From contig MPMV01000003.1 of assembly GCA_002238685.1 (NCBI GenBank), positions 1-64,000 on the forward strand: a stretch of 64,000 bases of DNA, written 5' to 3'. Every line of letters starts with the position of its first letter. The stretch's first letter is position 1. Both the position numbers and the translations under genes were made by a program. Under the pieces are notes generated by a model. The model searched no databases. It worked only from the letters and a program-made list of their open reading frames with translations, and was not told where the DNA came from. The stretch comes from a bacterium EF100-94H03 bin56 (GTDB lineage: Bacteria; Pseudomonadota; Alphaproteobacteria; SP197). Positions 33,676-45,689 of the stretch are shown here, piece after piece.

Positions 33676-35436
33676 ATGAGCGAAGCACGTAGCACCCAGG
33701 TTCGTTTCGAACCCGACGACAGGCCGCCGCTCTACCTGACGATCGGCCTTGGAACCCAGTTCGCGATCCTCGCGGTCACCGGCATCGTCCTGACGCCGGC
33801 AATCGTGGTTAGGGCTGGCGGGGGCAGCGAAGCCTTTCTTGTCTGGGCCGCCTTTGCCGCCCTCGTCGTGAGTGGCCTGACAACCATTCTCCAGGCCCGC
33901 AGGATCGGGCCTTTCGGCGCCGGCTACATTCTCATCATGGGAACCTCCGGCGCCTTCATTGCCGTGTGTGTCACCGCTCTTGCTGAAGGTGGACCGGGCA
34001 TGCTGGCGACACTCGTCTTCCTGTCATCCCTGGTCCAGTTCTCGCTGGCCAGACGTCTGTCGATCCTGCGCCGGATCCTGACACCGGCGGTGACAGGCAC
34101 GGTCATCATGATGATTCCGGTGACCGTCATGCCCATCGTGTTCGACATGCTGGCGGCCGTTCCTGACGATGTGGAGCCGATGGCCTCCCCGCTGGTGGCA
34201 GGCTTGACGCTCGCCATCATCCTTGGCATTGCCTTTGGCGCACGGTCCACCCTGCGCTTGTGGGCGCCCATCATCGGAATTTTCGTTGGTTGCAGCGTCG
34301 CCTCATGGTTTGGTCTCTACGACACGGCACGGATTGCCGCAGCGGGCTGGATCGGCATACCGGACGGAGGCTGGCCGGGGTTCAATCTTGATTTCGGACC
34401 GACGTTCTGGATTCTGCTGCCGGCCTTCATCTTTGTGACCTATGTCGGTGCCATCGAGACCGTGGGTGATTCCGTCGCCATCCAGTCGGTTTCGTGGAAG
34501 CACCGGCGCGCCATCGACTACAAGGTGGTTCAGGGTGCCGTTTCGGCCGACGGGGTGGGCAACTTCCTTTCAGGACTCGCCGGGACGGTTCCCAACACGA
34601 CCTACTCAACGAGCATCGCGGTCGTCGAATTGACCGGCATTGCGGCGCGCAGGGTCGGGGTCTGTGTCGGCCTGGTCTTCCTGATCGCTGCCTTTGTGCC
34701 CAAGTTTGCAGCCCTCGTGCTGGCGATTCCGGCGCCGGTGGCGGCCGCCTACCTGATCGTTCTTCTCGGCCTTCTCTTTGTCGCCGGCATGCGCCTCGTG
34801 ATCGGCGACGGCATGGATTATCGCAAGAGTCTGATGGTCGGCACTGCTTTCTGGATCGGTGCCGGTTTTCAGCACGGTGTCATCTTTCCGGACCTTCTGG
34901 GACCCTGGATGGGCAGTCTTGTCGGCAATGGCATGACGGCCGGGGGTGTCACGGCTGTTGTGCTGACGGTCTGTCTCAACCTGATGTCGCCGAAAAGCGC
35001 GGTCCTGAAGACGAGACCGGGTGCCGGCACGGCCCGGGAGATATCCGATTTCCTCGGGAAGGTCGGCTCGAAGTACGGCTGGAACGAGACACAGACCGAC
35101 CGTCTCATCCTGGTTGGCGACGAGATGGCTGCGACCCTGCTGGCTGCCGACGACGACGGCCAGGAAAGGCGGCTTGTGGTCAAGGCTCGCAGCGAGGGCT
35201 CGTCCATCGAGCTCGAGTTCATCACGTCAGGAAGCGATGGCAACGTCGAGGACGAGATCATGTTGCTGGGCGAACAGCCTGACAGGACCATGGTCGAAAA
35301 AGAACTGTCCCTGCGGTTGCTGCGGCACTACGCCTCGTCGGTCCACCACCAGAGCTTCACCAACGCCGACATCCTGACCGCGCGTGTTGAGCGTCCGGAA
35401 CAGGGGACAGCCGAGTCACGGCCTTCCATCGAGTGA
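33676..35436 (+). CDS. NCS2-family nucleobase permease with C-terminal GHKL-like domain
   Basis: The first 440 or so residues form a uracil/xanthine-type (NCS2) permease with many membrane helices, including a YVGAIETVGDS segment and VPNTTYSTS, where the family carries substrate-binding residues. About 130 residues follow (roughly 452-570) that are soluble and resemble a RsbW-like GHKL fold: VGDEMAATLL fits a weak N-box, and ELSLRLLRHYASSVHHQ a terminal helix. Glycine-rich ATP-binding boxes are not clear, so nucleotide binding is doubtful. It lies in an apparent operon with the arginase-fold gene and a Rieske oxygenase. Confidence 0.78.
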   Translation: MSEARSTQVRFEPDDRPPLYLTIGLGTQFAILAVTGIVLTPAIVVRAGGGSEAFLVWAAFAALVVSGLTTILQARRIGPFGAGYILIMGTSGAFIAVCVTALAEGGPGMLATLVFLSSLVQFSLARRLSILRRILTPAVTGTVIMMIPVTVMPIVFDMLAAVPDDVEPMASPLVAGLTLAIILGIAFGARSTLRLWAPIIGIFVGCSVASWFGLYDTARIAAAGWIGIPDGGWPGFNLDFGPTFWILLPAFIFVTYVGAIETVGDSVAIQSVSWKHRRAIDYKVVQGAVSADGVGNFLSGLAGTVPNTTYSTSIAVVELTGIAARRVGVCVGLVFLIAAFVPKFAALVLAIPAPVAAAYLIVLLGLLFVAGMRLVIGDGMDYRKSLMVGTAFWIGAGFQHGVIFPDLLGPWMGSLVGNGMTAGGVTAVVLTVCLNLMSPKSAVLKTRPGAGTAREISDFLGKVGSKYGWNETQTDRLILVGDEMAATLLAADDDGQERRLVVKARSEGSSIELEFITSGSDGNVEDEIMLLGEQPDRTMVEKELSLRLLRHYASSVHHQSFTNADILTARVERPEQGTAESRPSIE

Positions 35437-35486
35437 AGGCAATCCGTATCGGCACCTCTATCGGAGGCAGCAAGGGAGATTCAGGA

Positions 35487-36671
35487 ATGACCGTTCCCCT
35501 GAAACCGAACGAGGCACGGCAGTTGTTGCCGAAGCAGTGCTACTACTCCAGCACCTGGTTCGAACGGGAACACCAGGAATTGTTCAGCCGGTCCTGGACC
35601 TTTGCCTGCACGGTTCAGGACGTGCCGCATACCGGAGACTACAAGGCAGTTCAGATCAACCGTTATCCCATGATGATCGTGCGCGCGAAGGATGGTTCCC
35701 TGCGCGCCCATCACAACACGTGCCGACACCGGGGAACGCAGATCTTCGAGGAGGGGAAGGGCAACTGCCGCCACGGCATCGTCTGTCCCTATCATGCCTG
35801 GACCTACAACATCGATGACGGCAGCCTGCGCGGGCTGCCGAAGAAGGACCTCTGCTTTGCCGGCATGAACCTGGCGGACTGGCCGCTGCACGCCGGCAGT
35901 GTCGGCACCATCGGTGATCTCGTGTTCGTCAATCCGATGGCTCGACCCGACGAGGACTTCGATACCTGGATCGGCTCCATGCCGAAGACCCACATGTGGC
36001 CGCACTCACTGGAAGGACTGTCCGAGAAACGCCCGGTACGCTACGACATCCACTGCAACTGGAAGGTGTTTTGCGAGAACGCGATGGACGGCTATCACCT
36101 GAGCTATCTCCACGACAAGACTCTGATGGGTCCCGACGTGGAGGATCAGGACTGGGATGCGGTTCACCGTCACTGGGTCTCCATCGCCTTTGGAGAAAAT
36201 CCGTCCCGGGAGGATTCGCACCATGCCACCATACCCGGAACCTCGATGTCGGGGCGGCGCCCCGTCGTGTGGCAGTTCTTTCCCAATTCCGGGGTCCTGG
36301 CCACGTCCATTTTCTTTTCGGCCTACGTGATCGTTCCGGTAGACCCGGAGCGTTGCTACCTTGAACTGCGCACCTGGATGGCGCCCCGGGAGAAGGGCGG
36401 CGAGCCTAAGAAGGAGGGGCGCAGAAGCGGAACCAGCGGTCATGGCCACATCATGAAGGATGGCCGGCGCTACATTTCCATCGACGAACTGGGCTGCCAC
36501 GCCATGGAGGCCCTCGACTTTCAGATCGAGGACATGTGGGTCGTCGAGCAACAGCAGAAAGCCCTGCGTTCACCGATGATGAAGACCGGCGAACTGGCCG
36601 ACCACGGCGAAACCTCCCTGACCTTCTTCCAGGCCAACATTCTCGACCTGGTGCCACTCGACCCGCCCTGA
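35487..36671 (+). CDS. Rieske aromatic-ring/betaine-type oxygenase alpha subunit
   Basis: The Rieske centre is in CRHRGTQIF and CPYHAWTYNID, and the mononuclear iron site in CENAMDGYHLSYLH (about residues 195-208). The family includes ring-hydroxylating and N-demethylating oxygenases; the substrate is not clear. I prefer the ATG at 35487, preceded by GGGAG and a second AGGA, over an upstream GTG at 35433 that would add 18 weak residues. It follows the permease gene closely. No ferredoxin or reductase gene is adjacent. Confidence 0.85.
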   Translation: MTVPLKPNEARQLLPKQCYYSSTWFEREHQELFSRSWTFACTVQDVPHTGDYKAVQINRYPMMIVRAKDGSLRAHHNTCRHRGTQIFEEGKGNCRHGIVCPYHAWTYNIDDGSLRGLPKKDLCFAGMNLADWPLHAGSVGTIGDLVFVNPMARPDEDFDTWIGSMPKTHMWPHSLEGLSEKRPVRYDIHCNWKVFCENAMDGYHLSYLHDKTLMGPDVEDQDWDAVHRHWVSIAFGENPSREDSHHATIPGTSMSGRRPVVWQFFPNSGVLATSIFFSAYVIVPVDPERCYLELRTWMAPREKGGEPKKEGRRSGTSGHGHIMKDGRRYISIDELGCHAMEALDFQIEDMWVVEQQQKALRSPMMKTGELADHGETSLTFFQANILDLVPLDPP

Positions 36672-38946: not shown

Positions 38947-39981
38947 ATGAATATCCGCAGGCTGTCCAGTGGGCTGAAGGCCTCGTACCGCGGGTCGAAT
39001 GTCGCCCGCCGTGTACAGCATTTCGAGAGCTGGGACGCGAGAGCGTCTTCGCAGAGCGCCGCCACGGATTACGATCATGTCGACACCGTGAAGGAATACT
39101 ATGACCTCTGCGGCGAGTTTATGGTGTTCGGATGGGGCGAATCCCTGCACTTCTCGCCGCTGTCGGCGCTGGAGAGCCCGGAGGAATCCGCAATACGGCA
39201 CCAGCGGCTGATGATCTCCAGGCTGGAGTTGTGTCGAGGCATGACGGTGATCGATGTTGGTTGCGGCATCGGGGGCCCGATGCGCCGAGTCGCCCGTGAG
39301 GCGGGCGTCAGGGTGGTCGGGATAAACAGCAATGAGATTCAGCTCGACAGGGCGAAGTCGCTGAACGCGAAGGCCGGGCTCGACCATTTGGTCAGTTGCG
39401 TCGCCTGCAGCTTCATGGACATGAGCGCCGTCGAGGACAATCGCTTCGACAGGGGCTATGCCATCGAATCGACATGCCATGCGCCTGACAAGGCGGGTGC
39501 GTTCGCCGAGATATACCGTGTACTGAAACCCGGCGCCTTGTTCTGGGGCCAGGAAATGTGCATGACGGACAAGTTCGATCCGGATGACAGCCGGCACCGG
39601 GCCATCAAGCGGGATCTGATGCACAAGATTGCGCTCAAGGATATCGAGACGACGGACGGGGTGAACCGGGACCTCGAAACGGCGGGGTTTCAGGTCATCG
39701 AGGGCGTGGACCGTGCCGTCGAGGACGACGGCGGGGCCGTGCCGTGGTACCGGCCCCTGGAGACCCGGCAAGGAACGCCAGGCAGTGCCATGCGCCGTAC
39801 ACCGCTGGGCCGCAAGGCGTTCATCGGGGCTGCCAGGCTGGCCGAAGCGCTGGGAGTGTTCCCGAAAGGCTCCGCAAGGGTCGTCGCTCTGATGGACCGG
39901 ACCGCCAATGCGTATGTGGCAGGCGGCGCTGCCGGCATCTTCACGCCTCTATACTGTTTCCTGGCGCGCAAGCCGCTATAG
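38947..39981 (+). CDS. Sterol C-24 methyltransferase-like protein (ERG6/SMT family)
   Basis: The 344-residue protein has the full set of SMT hallmarks in order. They are the sterol-binding region YYDLCGEFMVFGWGESLHF (51-69), the S-adenosylmethionine motif VGCGIGGPMR (104-113), AIESTCHAPD (172-181), MTDKFDPDD (about 206-214), and a C-terminal Sterol_MT_C-like end with AGGAAGIFTPLY and LARKPL. In eukaryotes such enzymes add a methyl group at C-24 of the sterol side chain. A GAAGGA ribosome site precedes the ATG. It converges with a P450 gene 36 bases away. Bacterial SMTs are rare and the true substrate (own or host sterol, or another isoprenoid) is unknown. Confidence 0.85.
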   Translation: MNIRRLSSGLKASYRGSNVARRVQHFESWDARASSQSAATDYDHVDTVKEYYDLCGEFMVFGWGESLHFSPLSALESPEESAIRHQRLMISRLELCRGMTVIDVGCGIGGPMRRVAREAGVRVVGINSNEIQLDRAKSLNAKAGLDHLVSCVACSFMDMSAVEDNRFDRGYAIESTCHAPDKAGAFAEIYRVLKPGALFWGQEMCMTDKFDPDDSRHRAIKRDLMHKIALKDIETTDGVNRDLETAGFQVIEGVDRAVEDDGGAVPWYRPLETRQGTPGSAMRRTPLGRKAFIGAARLAEALGVFPKGSARVVALMDRTANAYVAGGAAGIFTPLYCFLARKPL

Positions 39982-40017: not shown

Positions 40018-42045
40018 TCAGGCGTGAATCTCGCGCCTCTTCATGGCCACGCGGAACTTCAGGTTCCTGCTCGGCTTTAGCGACGGAAGCGGATTGTACC
40101 GGAACTTGTAGTTCTTCGGGTGTATCTCGAGGGTGAAGTAATGCGCGACCATGATCAGGTTGACGACCAGCTGCAGGTTCATCCACCGCGCGCCGAGACA
40201 TCTGTGCGTACCGAGCCCGTAGGGTGCGTATCCGGGGCCGCGGTGTTCGCTGCGCGCAGGCAGGTATCGGTCGATGTCAAACGAGAACGGGGCCGGGAAG
40301 GTCTCCTCCATGAAATGGGGGGCCGATTGGGCTATGTAAAGCCGTGTCCCCACCGGCAGTTCGTAGCCCTCGACCACACAGCTGTTCATTACGTTTCGCA
40401 GTGCCATCGGGACGATCGGATACATCCTGAGGCATTCCATGACAAAACGCCGGGTGATGTCGGTCTCGGACGTATTGAATCTCTCGCTGTCCGGATCGCC
40501 GCCTTCGAACAGAGCGTCGGCTTCGCTCTGGATCTTGCGATGAAGGTCGGGCTGCGACGCCATGGCGTAAACCGCGAAGCTGAAAGCATCGCCCATGTAC
40601 ACGCTCGCGACCAGCGCTGCCGACAGTGCAAAACGCAGATTCGATTCCGGCACCAGTTGTGGATCGCTCGCATGGAGGCTCAACAGGTCGTCCGCAAGGT
40701 CCCTCGGGCAACCGGCCCGCTGGGCCGGTGTATGGACGCCTTCGACCCGCTCCAGCAATACGTCGATGGTTTTCGCCAGGCGTTTCATGCGCGGGGTGCT
40801 CAGCATGAATTCGGGCAGCGTTCTCGTGATATGTACGTTGAGCGCCCGTTCCTTGAAAGCGACCAGGTCGTCGAAGATATCCTGTGACTCGATGCCGATA
40901 AAAAGCGGCGATATTTGCGCATTTATCATTCGTCGGCACATGTACGTTGCGGGCAGAACGTCGCCGACTTTCCAGTCTGCCATGAAATTGCGAGCGTATT
41001 CGAAAACCTGGTCCACCTGCCCTGCCAGCCTTTCTCGCGAGTAGGCCGGAGACAAGGCCCTGCGGAGACGGAAATGATCGGTCCCGTCCAGGGAAGGCAA
41101 GACGCCGGACGCGCCGTAGATCTTCTCGAAATCGGCAAAATAGTCCCGGGCTCTGAGGTACATCCTCCCACGCCGGTGCACCCATTGGTTCGCCTTCGCA
41201 CCGGAAAGGAAAATCATGGGTTCCTTGAACGGCAGACGGATCTGGAAAACCGGTCCGTATCTCTCGGTAAGTTCGGCAAACAGCGCGGGAATGTTGCCGG
41301 AGCGAAAATGCGGGCTAAACAACAAGCGGCGCAGGGAGACGCCCGGGATTTTCTTGTTTAGCGTGGAGCGCCAAAGCAGGGGGTTGGCAATATTGTGCTT
41401 GACCGCGTCGGCCAGGGAGCGGCCGATCAAGTCCATCCTGCAAATGTTGTCGATGCGCTCTTCGGCGTCTTCATCCAGTTCGAATATGAAACGAAAAACG
41501 TCGCATGTGTTGATGAGGCAGATGATGATTACGTCTCTTGGAGCGGGAATCGAGTCGGTAAAGATCAGCTCGCCGATACGCGCCTTTATGAATTGACCCT
41601 TGGTACCTTGTCGAGAAGCGCTAGTGGAATCGGTATGATACTTGGTGGAAACCAGCGTATAGAATTCGCCGTTGTGGCGTTCCAGAATCTCCAGATCGAC
41701 CAAGCGGTCGAGAGTCAGGTCGATGGCCGACTCAGCGTGGAGAACAAGCCGTTCGATCCAGAATTGGGCATTCCGTTGAACGGGTTCGTCCGCGATTTGC
41801 TTCAGTACGGGATCCAGCGCGGGATCGCCCGTCTCCGTCGGGTCCACGAGGTACAGCGACTCCATGTCCGTGTCGATGCGCGAAAGAAGAGAAAGTTCCG
41901 CCAGCACCGCACCGACGATAGCGCAGTTCAGGTTCCAGCCAGGCACCTGGTGAAAGTACCCGTTCTGCTCGTTGAGGAGCACCAGGATGAGCTCATCGAG
42001 CAAATTCAGCGGCTGGGTCCGCACATTCCCGGCAGTATCGGCCAT
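40018..42045 (-). CDS. GPP34 (GOLPH3-like) domain - cytochrome P450 fusion
   Basis: The 675-residue protein has a GPP34/GOLPH3-type domain first (about residues 10-220: LNLLDELILVLLNEQNGYF, then an all-helical run ending near CRMDLIGRSLADAV) and a cytochrome P450 second (about 240-675). The P450 has ECLR (the ExxR motif, E537) and the haem loop YGLGTHRCLG with Cys616. The I-helix reads YMGDAFSF where most P450s have AGxDTT, so the usual acid-threonine pair is lacking. GOLPH3 proteins bind phosphoinositide membranes in eukaryotes, so this domain may tether the P450 to membrane lipid. The ATG at 42045 follows AGGAGG by nine bases. It lies between an SMT and a sterol-type Rieske gene. Confidence 0.85.
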   Translation of the reverse strand: MADTAGNVRTQPLNLLDELILVLLNEQNGYFHQVPGWNLNCAIVGAVLAELSLLSRIDTDMESLYLVDPTETGDPALDPVLKQIADEPVQRNAQFWIERLVLHAESAIDLTLDRLVDLEILERHNGEFYTLVSTKYHTDSTSASRQGTKGQFIKARIGELIFTDSIPAPRDVIIICLINTCDVFRFIFELDEDAEERIDNICRMDLIGRSLADAVKHNIANPLLWRSTLNKKIPGVSLRRLLFSPHFRSGNIPALFAELTERYGPVFQIRLPFKEPMIFLSGAKANQWVHRRGRMYLRARDYFADFEKIYGASGVLPSLDGTDHFRLRRALSPAYSRERLAGQVDQVFEYARNFMADWKVGDVLPATYMCRRMINAQISPLFIGIESQDIFDDLVAFKERALNVHITRTLPEFMLSTPRMKRLAKTIDVLLERVEGVHTPAQRAGCPRDLADDLLSLHASDPQLVPESNLRFALSAALVASVYMGDAFSFAVYAMASQPDLHRKIQSEADALFEGGDPDSERFNTSETDITRRFVMECLRMYPIVPMALRNVMNSCVVEGYELPVGTRLYIAQSAPHFMEETFPAPFSFDIDRYLPARSEHRGPGYAPYGLGTHRCLGARWMNLQLVVNLIMVAHYFTLEIHPKNYKFRYNPLPSLKPSRNLKFRVAMKRREIHA

Positions 42046-42873
42046 CAGCCACGGCCTCCTTGCACCCGAGTTCGCGTCGCGGCGTGTGCAGTCTGCTTCG
42101 GAATGAAGAGTACGGGAGGCGGAAAAGCGGTGGCTGAGTTGAGCATGTCCAGAGCAGTCGTACTCCAAGGATGCGGGGAATCCAGGGACTTGAACCGCCA
42201 GTGTCATTCACCTTCGAGCGTAACTATGGGGTCGGGGTGCGCGGCAGTCAAGTCTGCAGCACGAGCCCACGCTGGTTTCACTTGACGCTGGAAGGTTCCT
42301 GTGAAGAACAATTGTCCTTTTGTTTGCGTATTTTACCATCGACGTGTGTACCTTTTGTACGACCGTTTGACGGGTGTGCTCTCCAGTGCAGTCGGGAGGA
42401 GCTGTTGAATGGCGGTCTGCGTGTCCGACGGGCATTGCGGGCCGGTTGCCACGGTGGCAACCGTCTGATGGAGGCGAGCCGAGGGTCCATGCCGCCCGCG
42501 AGACGCAGCAGGAAGTCCCCGTACCCTGCCGCAACCGTTGGGCCCGCCTACGAATTGGACGGCAGCGGGTGCCTGATAGGGAACCCGAGTTGAAGTGGTG
42601 GGCTCCGACGGTCTCCTGGAGGTCGCGTCTCGACTTGTTGTCACGCAATGGCGGTGCTATCTGGGGTCGTGTGAACAGCAGCGGGCCAGGACATTGGCCG
42701 CACGCCGGGTTCACCGTCAGGGCAGTACGCGCTTGACTTCGTTTGGCACGGTGGGGATGGGATGCCAATGCATCGGGGACGCGGGCGATCGCGTGTTTTC
42801 GGTCTGACGGTCCCTTGTGACACCTGGGTTACCCAAGCCAGGAACATGTCCGGACTTGAAGTGCGATTGCAGC
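42046..42873. other. 828-base divergent gap between the P450 and Rieske genes
   Basis: This gap separates two divergently read genes and must hold their promoters. An AT-richer trough lies at about 42300-42375. I see no convincing reading frame, tRNA, insertion sequence or array. A 186-residue minus-strand frame (42208-42768) is Arg/Ser/Thr-rich and not protein-like. A small RNA or leftover gene cannot be excluded. Confidence 0.4.
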
Positions 42874-43899
42874 ATGGATGACGGGGAGGCGGCACTCTTC
42901 CCGTTTCCCGAAGGGTGGTACTTCGTCGCCAGTCGACGCTCCCTGGCCAAAGGGGAACTGCTTGAAAGGCAGTGGCTTGGGCAGTACATCGTCGCATGGA
43001 GCGACGATGACGGAAGCGTCTGCGTGGCCGAGTCCGTATGCCCGCACATGGGTTCCGCTCTGGGCCCGACCGTCGGTGGCCGCGTGCGTGATGGTTGTCT
43101 CGTCTGTCCCTTTCACGGCTTTACCTACGATATCGTCGGCAATTGTGTCGCGACCCCTCACGCGCCGCCGCCGAAGTCACTGGCGCTCAACGTCTATGTC
43201 ACGCGGGTCATTCAAGGCCTCGTCTTTGCCTGGTGGAGTGCTGCCGGCCGCCCGCCGCAATGGCATCTGCCGGAAGAGCCGCCGGTCGGAAACGACTGGT
43301 GCGATCTGGAAATCCGGACCGTTCGGTTTCGCGGTCATGTGCAGGAGATCGCGGAGAACTCCGTGGACCTGGCGCACCTGCGGCATGTGCACGGCTACGG
43401 CAACGTTCAACCTGTAGGATCCCCGACGGTTGACGGTTCGCATCTCCTCGCCCGCTTCGAATTCGTTCGCCGTGCCACCTGGTGTGGCGTTGCCAGCACC
43501 TATCGCGTGTCGGCCGCCGCTCACGTCCACGGGCTGGGATATTCGTTCGTCAACATCCAGGAGCATTCCATCGGCATGGAGCTTCGCCTGTGGGTGCTGG
43601 CCACACCCGTCGACGGCACGCTGGTGGATCTGTTGCTGGCCAGTCAGATCCGGGAAATACGAAAGCCCAAGCGTCTGATCGTGGGACTCGGCTTCCTGCC
43701 GCCGAGATTCCGCACCAGGGTCATGAACAGGCTGGTGGCCTCCACGCAAATGCGGGATGTCCAACAGGATGTCGTGATCTGGCAACGACGGCAGTACCGG
43801 CCGCATCCGCGCTTGTCTCGTTCGGACGGGGACATCGGCCGATACCGGCGCTATTGCAGGCAGTTCTATCCGGACGTCCGCGTCAGCAAGCACGGCTAG
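42874..43899 (+). CDS. Sterol-type Rieske oxygenase (KshA/DAF-36/SdmA-like)
   Basis: The Rieske site is in CPHMGSALGP and CPFHGFTYDI, and the mononuclear iron site in ENSVDLAHLRHVHG, whose Asp-x2-His-x4-His order is that of the 3-ketosteroid hydroxylase/cholesterol 7-desaturase/bacterial C-4 demethylase group rather than of ring hydroxylases. The likely start is ATG 42874, giving 341 residues; a GTG at 42817 would add a cysteine-rich 19-residue stretch. With the SMT and P450 genes nearby it suggests sterol modification. Its electron-transfer partner is not in the window. Confidence 0.82.
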   Translation: MDDGEAALFPFPEGWYFVASRRSLAKGELLERQWLGQYIVAWSDDDGSVCVAESVCPHMGSALGPTVGGRVRDGCLVCPFHGFTYDIVGNCVATPHAPPPKSLALNVYVTRVIQGLVFAWWSAAGRPPQWHLPEEPPVGNDWCDLEIRTVRFRGHVQEIAENSVDLAHLRHVHGYGNVQPVGSPTVDGSHLLARFEFVRRATWCGVASTYRVSAAAHVHGLGYSFVNIQEHSIGMELRLWVLATPVDGTLVDLLLASQIREIRKPKRLIVGLGFLPPRFRTRVMNRLVASTQMRDVQQDVVIWQRRQYRPHPRLSRSDGDIGRYRRYCRQFYPDVRVSKHG

Positions 43900-44036: not shown

Positions 44037-44537
44037 CTAGCGTTGCCAGGTACACTCCGCCCAGGTGACGTAAAGCGTTTCCGTCAGGTAATCGACTTCG
44101 TAGGGACATGATCCCGTGATGTTCTCAAACCTGCCGGCCCCGCCCACCAGTGTCAGCTGTCCCGTACCCCCTTCCTGGGCGGCACCGTCCACACGTCGTT
44201 TCGCAGTCGAGAACAGCATGTCGCCCGAGGGACTCGACGAGGTGCAGGCCGCCTCGAGTTCGGTGCCGTCGGCCGAAACCACTCCAGACGCGATGCACCT
44301 CGTCTGCATGGACTTGCCCTCGACGAAGGGTTCGCCACTGCTCTTTACAATGGTACTCGTGCCCTGCGAGACACCGCTGAAGATCGCTCCGTCCATATGG
44401 GTGATTGTGGCGTACTGGCTGGTCAGGCTCGACGCGAAGGCGAAACTGCCGGTTTCCTCAGCGGCCGGGCTTTGGCCAACCTGCAGAAGTCCGACAGCGG
44501 CGATCAGCCCCAATGCACTTCTTCTGGCGACATTCAT
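44037..44537 (-). CDS. Secreted beta-rich hypothetical protein
   Basis: The 166-residue protein has an N-terminal signal peptide (ARRSALGLIAAVGLLQVG, cut probably after PAA near residue 26) and a mature part rich in Gly, Ser and Thr. GGTGQLTLVGGAGRFENITGS near residues 121-141 resembles the repeat-turn pattern of lipocalin/allene-oxide-cyclase-like beta barrels. Cysteines at about 80, 97, 144 and 163 could pair in the periplasm. Start ATG 44537 follows GACGAGGAC. Function is unknown. It converges with the Rieske gene. Confidence 0.65.
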   Translation of the reverse strand: MNVARRSALGLIAAVGLLQVGQSPAAEETGSFAFASSLTSQYATITHMDGAIFSGVSQGTSTIVKSSGEPFVEGKSMQTRCIASGVVSADGTELEAACTSSSPSGDMLFSTAKRRVDGAAQEGGTGQLTLVGGAGRFENITGSCPYEVDYLTETLYVTWAECTWQR

Positions 44538-44813
44538 GACGTTCGTCCTCGTCTCTTCAAGGTGGCGTGGCAACATGCCGACGCTACCGTGCCAAGAAAG
44601 AGCGGGCTGAACAACACAAACCCCGCGATTTCCACCAGACCTTCGCGGCACAATTCCGGATCACCCGCACCCGTGCGCGTCACTCCCACCGGTCAACGCC
44701 AATCAGAGCCCTTCGAGACCGGCCACAATCGGCCCGGTGCGAATCAGCTTGTGGGCATCGCCAGGGTTGTGATCCTGGCGCCCGCCGATCATGCTCCACA
44801 GGATCCACAAGGC

Positions 44814-45689
44814 ATGTCCGGGAAGGGAGGCGCGAGCTTGCCACCTTACAGGAAACCCGCGCAATGGACGGATCCGCGCAACAAGCCCTTTCCCAGACAG
44901 GTCGTCTTCACCTGTCCGCCCCGGGACTTCTGCGGCGGGCCGACGGACTTCGTGCGCATGGCGCCCGACACGGTTGGAGTCCATGGCCGCATACTGCACA
45001 TTCCCGACTACAAACACCGTCTCGACCAGCGCTTGGAGAACTTCGCGCTGCTCGAGGAGGTGGTGGAGTGTGCGGCGGACGCCGGCGCCGACGTCTGCGC
45101 CCAGGTCGGCTCGAACTGGGTCCATGCCTCGAACCTGGGGGTCGAGGGCATCCGCCGCTATATCGAGCGGCTGAGCGAGACCTACGCAACCGCATTCCAC
45201 ATGTCGGGCTACGCCATGGTCGAAGCACTGCGAGCCGCCAACGTCGAGAAGGTGGCGCTCAACGCCGTCTACCACTGGCCCGACTGGTGGCGGGGCACCG
45301 TGGGCTTTCTGCGCGAGGCAGGATTCGATGTCGTATGGGCCGGCAACTTCGTCGACCAGGGCTGGTTCGCCAGCCAGGAGGAACTCAACGCCCAGGTGTT
45401 CTGCTTCGACGAGGACCTGGCGAAAAAATCAATGGCGTATGTTGCCGACAAGGCGCCTCACGTCGATGCCTACCTCGCCAACGGCACGGCCCACTTCCGA
45501 CGCGCGTGTGACGGTGCGACCCGGAGATTCGTCGGGTTGGCACCCGAACTCGAGGCCATGCTCGGAAAACCCGTGATCACGCACGACATCGCACTCCATT
45601 GGCGCATCTTCAAGACACTCGGTATGGCTCCGGCGACGAGACAGGGCATCCTGCTCGCGTCCCTGCAGCAATCAACGCCGGGCCCGTGA
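44814..45689 (+). CDS. Asp/Glu racemase / arylmalonate decarboxylase-family protein
   Basis: The protein (about 290 residues) resembles maleate isomerase and arylmalonate decarboxylase relatives of the Asp/Glu racemase fold: SNWVHASNLGVEGIRRYIERLSE, NGTAHFRRACDG, ELEAMLGKPVITHDIALHWR. The last segment is the usual conserved end of that family. Two starts are possible: ATG 44814, or TTG 44838 with GGGAGG seven bases upstream. The expected cysteine pair of the racemases is not clearly placed, so activity is uncertain. Substrate is unknown. Confidence 0.65.
   Translation: MSGKGGASLPPYRKPAQWTDPRNKPFPRQVVFTCPPRDFCGGPTDFVRMAPDTVGVHGRILHIPDYKHRLDQRLENFALLEEVVECAADAGADVCAQVGSNWVHASNLGVEGIRRYIERLSETYATAFHMSGYAMVEALRAANVEKVALNAVYHWPDWWRGTVGFLREAGFDVVWAGNFVDQGWFASQEELNAQVFCFDEDLAKKSMAYVADKAPHVDAYLANGTAHFRRACDGATRRFVGLAPELEAMLGKPVITHDIALHWRIFKTLGMAPATRQGILLASLQQSTPGP

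Follow-up and report, generated by a model that had tools for sequence, protein, structure and literature searches.

A GOLPH3-like domain fused to a cytochrome P450 beside bacterial sterol genes: a candidate sterol-tailoring enzyme, chiefly of sponge symbionts

Introduction

What does a bacterial cytochrome P450 do with a GOLPH3-like (GPP34) domain at its N terminus, and on what substrate might such a protein act? The question is raised by one gene in the 64,000-nucleotide stretch of DNA analysed here, which we call the window. A sequence-only reading of this gene had described a GPP34 fold continuous with a P450, an architecture not familiar to it from characterised enzymes. The unfamiliarity holds: the open-access papers searched contained no description of a GPP34-P450 protein. 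That reading was silent on the minus strand of the gene, on the loss of the acid-Thr pair from its I helix, and on its sterol gene neighbourhood.

Results

One open frame encodes a GPP34 domain and a P450

The frame is free of stops throughout and encodes 675 residues. An upstream in-frame ATG offers an alternative start at 42207 (729 aa), and the start at 42045 is favoured because a strong Shine-Dalgarno sequence lies just upstream. The features of the gene are as follows.

40018-42045, minus strand: GPP34-P450 fusion gene, 675 aa (open frame, Pfam, homologous loci, fold models)
42055-42061, minus strand: Shine-Dalgarno sequence AAGGAGG (direct reading of the sequence)
41395-42003, minus strand: GPP34 (GOLPH3-like) domain, residues 15-217 (Pfam PF05719, E 4.8e-28; GOLPH3 fold)
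41308-41394, minus strand: linker and P450 N terminus, residues 218-246 (residues 220-229 at pLDDT <50, low model confidence)
40105-41307, minus strand: cytochrome P450 domain, residues 247-647 (Pfam PF00067, E 1.7e-34; P450 fold)
40588-40605, minus strand: I helix, S481-V-Y483-M-G485-D486 (column counts and comparison with the canonical paralogue L051)
40426-40437, minus strand: ExxR motif, E537-R540 (invariant in 58 homologues)
40192-40230, minus strand: haem loop YAPYGLGTHRCLG, residues 606-618, with Cys616 as ligand (invariant in 58 homologues)

Both Pfam families score far above their curated cut-offs (99 bits against 29.1 for GPP34). The AlphaFold2 model of the full fusion, built on the 58 homologues, reached a pLDDT of 80.9 and a pTM of 0.70, with a low-confidence linker and a domain-to-domain geometry that is not usable. 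Modelled alone, the GPP34 part (pLDDT 81.1, pTM 0.80) superposed on GOLPH3 (9qpq) with Z 19.8 and an rmsd of 2.5 over 196 residues, and on Vps74 with Z 16-17, whereas unrelated folds reached Z 5.2 at best; the GOLPH3-like bundle on which the sequence-only reading depended is therefore found by fold prediction. The P450 part matched P450 structures (CYP46A1, CYP184A1, CYP51, CYP90B1 and others, tied) at Z of about 33-35, with a Foldseek E of 1.7e-15, and sterol P450s were no better as structural matches than fatty-acid or terpene P450s.

The fusion is conserved in at least 11 phyla

A scan of genome contigs returned 232 relatives. The best 80 of these, analysed further, were all near full-length fusions at 63-76% identity, placed in other assemblies and covered by tblastn from query residue 1-29 through 664-675, and both Pfam families (GPP34 and p450) matched in all 58 aligned members. 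The domain order thus recurs in other genomes, a check that had been proposed for it. That a sequencing or assembly error had joined two genes, one of the two outcomes named beforehand as refuting the fusion, is ruled out by the 191-kb contig and by the 80 fusion loci elsewhere. The GPP34-P450 fusion is genuine. Pairwise dN/dS values of 0.05-0.28, alike in the GPP34 and P450 halves (seven pairs), show that purifying selection acts on both.

The fusion is present in at least 11 phyla, and those in the tree (NCBI names) are Pseudomonadota, Chloroflexota, Gemmatimonadota, Nitrospirota, Latescibacterota, Binatota, Verrucomicrobiota, Bdellovibrionota, Myxococcota, Actinomycetota and Acidobacteriota. 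Several of them do not form single clades, which suggests that the fusion moved horizontally between phyla, on a tree in which the taxon names and bins of metagenome-assembled genomes (MAGs) can err and the joining points of long-branch outgroups are unreliable. Within the window's genus and family the distribution is patchy, some genomes carrying the fusion and others lacking it, and the window's class has it in 4 of 289 genomes. A close homologue of the P450 half without the GPP34 domain was not seen, the other P450s of the class being at most 29% identical, and no plasmid record covered 80% of the query (best 28% identical).

As to hosts, the bins named 'jk18' come from symbionts of Ircinia sponges (PMC9531527), and APA, COS, IRC and RHO bin names match, to judge by the names, the sponge species of PMC8163846. 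The carriers that could be identified are sponge symbionts, and many or most of all fusion carriers probably live in marine sponges. A sponge origin is, we presume, likely for the remaining fusion-bearing bins as well.

Two side observations concern copies and single domains. In one relative (G291:C35:241182-243175, L038/L040) the fusion is frameshifted into two overlapping frames, and contig C9 of that genome has a further partial copy. The window genome also has two stand-alone GPP34 genes (G000:C42:34578-35171 and C76:41613-42227), which share about 36% identity with the domain of the fusion.

Sterol-related genes recur beside the fusion

In the window the fusion is flanked by two genes on the opposite strand.

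38947-39981, plus strand: sterol C-methyltransferase (SMT) homologue, Sterol_MT_C (Pfam PF08498, E 1.4e-15; motifs DVGCGIGGP and IESTCHAP)
42817-43899, plus strand: KshA-type Rieske oxygenase (Pfam KshA_C, E 4.8e-23; best PDB match KshA; Rieske CxH..CxxH and Fe site)

The methyltransferase homologue is convergent with the fusion and occurs at 51 of 92 other loci; the Rieske oxygenase, divergent from it and probably starting at the ATG at 42874, occurs at 61 of 92. Over 93 fusion loci, window included, the recurring families were the Rieske oxygenase (62), the SMT (52), an FAD protein (51) and RND transporters (25 + 23), in an order shuffled from locus to locus; related MAGs and a few duplicated contigs make these counts too high. 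A co-occurrence test over the 289 genomes of the class, independent of the sampling of loci, found Sterol_MT_C in 4 of 4 fusion genomes against 8 of 289 overall (p 2.5e-7), and the FAD protein in 3 of 4 against 4 of 289 (p 4e-6).

The FAD protein has an 'amine oxidase' fold and is 72-93% identical across phyla (L141:4522-5928); the window genome holds an intact copy, 77% identical, on another contig (G000:C3:51506-52900, L177). Its nearest solved structures, LkcE and polyenoic fatty acid isomerase, suggest a putative double-bond isomerase or oxidase acting on some lipid. The transporters, of the MMPL/RND type with a sterol-sensing domain (L141:8190-10700, L120:4496-6865), adjoin the fusion at roughly every second locus and weakly resemble HpnN and BstA; they are possible sterol exporters or importers. 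Two further genes of the window stand apart from this set: a second Rieske ring-hydroxylating oxygenase, GbcA-like (35433-36671, plus strand), which is not conserved near other fusions, and a 430-aa frame (44397-45689, plus strand) with no Pfam match and a weak likeness to EutA (E 0.0095).

In several genomes the fusion lies beside genes of sterol synthesis itself. SdmA, ERG24, a conventional CYP51 and a squalene epoxidase-oxidosqualene cyclase (OSC) adjoin it in Nitrospirota (L078/L181, L115/L183) and in L079, L118 and L133, with part of such a cluster also near it in L092, and the Chloroflexota loci have one or two ERG4/ERG24-like reductases close by. Mostly, the fusion gene set occurs without a cyclase cluster. 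In the window genome (98% complete) we found no squalene or oxidosqualene cyclase (no PF13249 match) and no ERG4/ERG24; the window organism would therefore have to modify imported rather than self-made sterol. A cyclase was likewise absent from 17 of the 34 fusion genomes tested, and several others had a hopene-type cyclase only; for all of these we assume a supply of sterol.

The cyclase of the clusters is itself a fusion: squalene epoxidase (PF08491) joined to oxidosqualene cyclase (PF13249 and PF13243), about 1150 aa, as in L183:7784-11236 (plus strand) and in L162-L167 and L169-L173. Together with ERG24 and CYP51 it sums to the 5.9 kb cluster length given in PMC9531527. The seemingly long cluster of 5910 bp had prompted the idea that the GPP34-P450 was the CYP51 described for the steroid clusters of Ircinia symbionts. 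This candidate was rejected, the clusters holding a separate, conventional CYP51, and their length is explained by the squalene epoxidase-OSC fusion.

We count the sterol gene neighbourhood as the best clue to function, and from it we infer that a sterol is the moderately likely substrate of the fusion. In the strongest competing account, which we hold to be unlikely, the P450, the methyltransferase and the Rieske oxygenase would all act on an isoprenoid or lipid other than a sterol, such as a hopanoid, a fatty acid or another terpenoid. SMT-like enzymes are able to methylate other substrates, and the homologue beside the fusion could act on another isoprenoid; fatty-acid P450s are among the structural neighbours, LkcE and polyenoic fatty acid isomerase are the solved structures most like the FAD protein, and a hopene-type cyclase is present in many of the fusion genomes. 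However, this account has to contend with the physical linkage of the fusion to sterol-synthesis clusters, and with its association with a transporter bearing a sterol-sensing domain, a KshA-type Rieske oxygenase and Sterol_MT_C.

The GPP34 half is acidic and lacks the PI4P-contact arginines

The fusion shares with GOLPH3 and Vps74 the Pfam family and the fold of its N-terminal half, and differs from them in the attached P450, in the loss of the PI4P-contact arginines and in a strongly acidic GPP34 domain. In GOLPH3 we take the contact residues to be R90, R171 and R174. In a profile alignment they face V44, E105 and I108 of the fusion, and across the 58 homologues V/I (also A, T, M or G), E/D and I/V prevail at the three positions, none of which is ever basic. 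Net charge in the GPP34 half lies between -26 and -9, with a median of -18, against a median of +7 for the P450 half.

The sequence-only reading had the GPP34 half dock the P450 on the membrane through phosphoinositides, in place of the usual transmembrane anchor. The GOLPH3 fold, the probable lipid nature of the substrates and the retention in 57 of 58 homologues of W37, which pairwise alignment pairs with GOLPH3 W81, would be in keeping with binding to phospholipid head groups of a phosphoinositide-like kind. Yet arginine positions that are never basic, in so acidic a domain, make phosphoinositide binding unlikely, and PI4P is rare in bacteria, most of which lack it. We regard docking on phospholipid head groups as distinctly improbable. 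Nor is there a usual anchor to replace, since bacterial P450s are usually soluble and have no transmembrane anchor. The folds, the frame and the motifs described earlier are supported; the phosphoinositide docking is not. GOLPH3 binds enzyme tails too, and it is possible that a putative docking of the GPP34 half uses a hydrophobic or other surface, towards the membrane or a protein partner.

The P450 half has a non-canonical I helix and is distinct from CYP51

Among PDB sequences, the P450 half is closest to the CYP51-ferredoxin of Methylococcus capsulatus (E 5.8e-20), likewise a bacterial P450 fusion in a sterol context. The fusion is nevertheless distinct from the CYP51 with which it coexists in the same clusters: they share 28% identity with only 94 aa aligned, and the CYP51 signature (A/G)GxHTS, AGQHTS in the neighbouring CYP51, is missing from the fusion, which has SVYMGD there. 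The sterol side-chain hydroxylases CYP46A1 and CYP90B1 are among the top structural matches of the P450 half (Z 33-35), although they are only 15-17% identical, tied with unrelated P450s, eukaryotic and devoid of GPP34. The P450 half would probably tailor the sterol side chain or a ring once C-24 has been alkylated.

Might the set instead initiate the breakdown of host sterol, by side-chain hydroxylation and KshA-like ring opening? The best solved match of the Rieske protein is KshA, the 3-ketosteroid 9alpha-hydroxylase, which would fit, but the methyltransferase and the ERG4/24-like reductases in the set indicate the building rather than the breaking of sterol, and we consider a catabolic role very unlikely.

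The catalytic core described by the sequence-only reading is intact: E537 and R540 of ExxR, Cys616 of the haem loop and H614 are invariant across the 58 homologues. In the I helix S481, Y483, G485 and D486 are equally invariant (S-x-Y-x-G-D), and the canonical acid-Thr pair is absent from all 58, [VAM]482-Y483 standing at the D-T position. Such a loss has precedents among P450s whose chemistry is substrate-assisted or non-hydroxylating. With the pair absent and an invariant Tyr in its place, we propose that oxygen activation may follow another proton route (e.g., substrate-assisted), or that the enzyme may carry out a desaturation, an isomerisation or a peroxide-type reaction instead of a plain hydroxylation. 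That the loss of the pair in 58 of 58 members marks a sterol-binding or carrier haem protein without oxygenase activity is the least probable account, given the invariant ExxR, haem Cys and His614, the purifying selection, and the fact that other P450s function without the Thr.

The D-T pair is kept in the unfused relatives L033 and L034 and in the paralogue L051. One genome of the window's genus and family, G304, carries several fusion copies, and one of them, L051 (G304:C324:239-2203), represents a diverged second GPP34-P450 lineage at 32% identity with the canonical I helix GLDTTAST; L053 and L056 are partial sequences that may belong to the same lineage. The fusion event may be older than the loss of the acid-Thr pair.

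Discussion

We favour, as the probable explanation, that the fusion is a sterol- (or steroid-) tailoring P450, distinct from CYP51, in a horizontally shared sterol-modification set of bacterial symbionts that live mainly in marine sponges. This set would comprise a C-24-type sterol methyltransferase, a KshA-type Rieske oxygenase, an FAD oxidase/isomerase-fold protein and the GPP34-P450, often with an RND transporter carrying a sterol-sensing domain. In sterol-making symbionts the fusion would act downstream of the OSC/CYP51/ERG24/SdmAB cluster, and in cyclase-less symbionts, the window organism included, on host or dietary sterol. The GPP34 half would most likely be a putative docking or scaffold module that keeps the enzyme near membrane-dissolved sterol or near partner enzymes and the transporter.

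Steroid gene clusters of Ircinia symbionts and their transfer across phyla are described by Kelly et al. 2022 (PMC9531527), and active bacterial SMTs and bacterial SMT clusters by Brown et al. 2023 (PMC10070321). As described there, these clusters share with the fusion loci the type of host and an ERG24-CYP51-LSS arrangement flanked by an SMT, and it is beside such clusters that the fusion lies in L115/L183, L079, L118 and L133. Searched by keyword, the main texts of both papers yielded no GPP34-P450 fusion, and they give the cluster P450 as CYP51. As far as could be seen, both domains are known, but their joint architecture, the motif in the I helix and the gene association are new.

Sponges have unusual sterols, and the fossil remains of these sterols serve to date the earliest animals; bacterial symbionts have become candidate makers or modifiers of them (PMC10070321, PMC9531527). 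The fusion adds to the sterol gene neighbourhood of these symbionts an uncharacterised and widely shared enzyme. It also brings a group of P450s whose I-helix motif is new, and offers bacterial GPP34 domains a first lead to their function. More tentatively, and as a possibility we would not yet call probable, it may represent a new P450 subfamily of non-canonical chemistry, docked by its GOLPH3 fold in a sterol-tailoring complex and spread horizontally among sponge-symbiont phyla, which would remodel host or symbiont sterols and so contribute to the unusual sterols of sponges.
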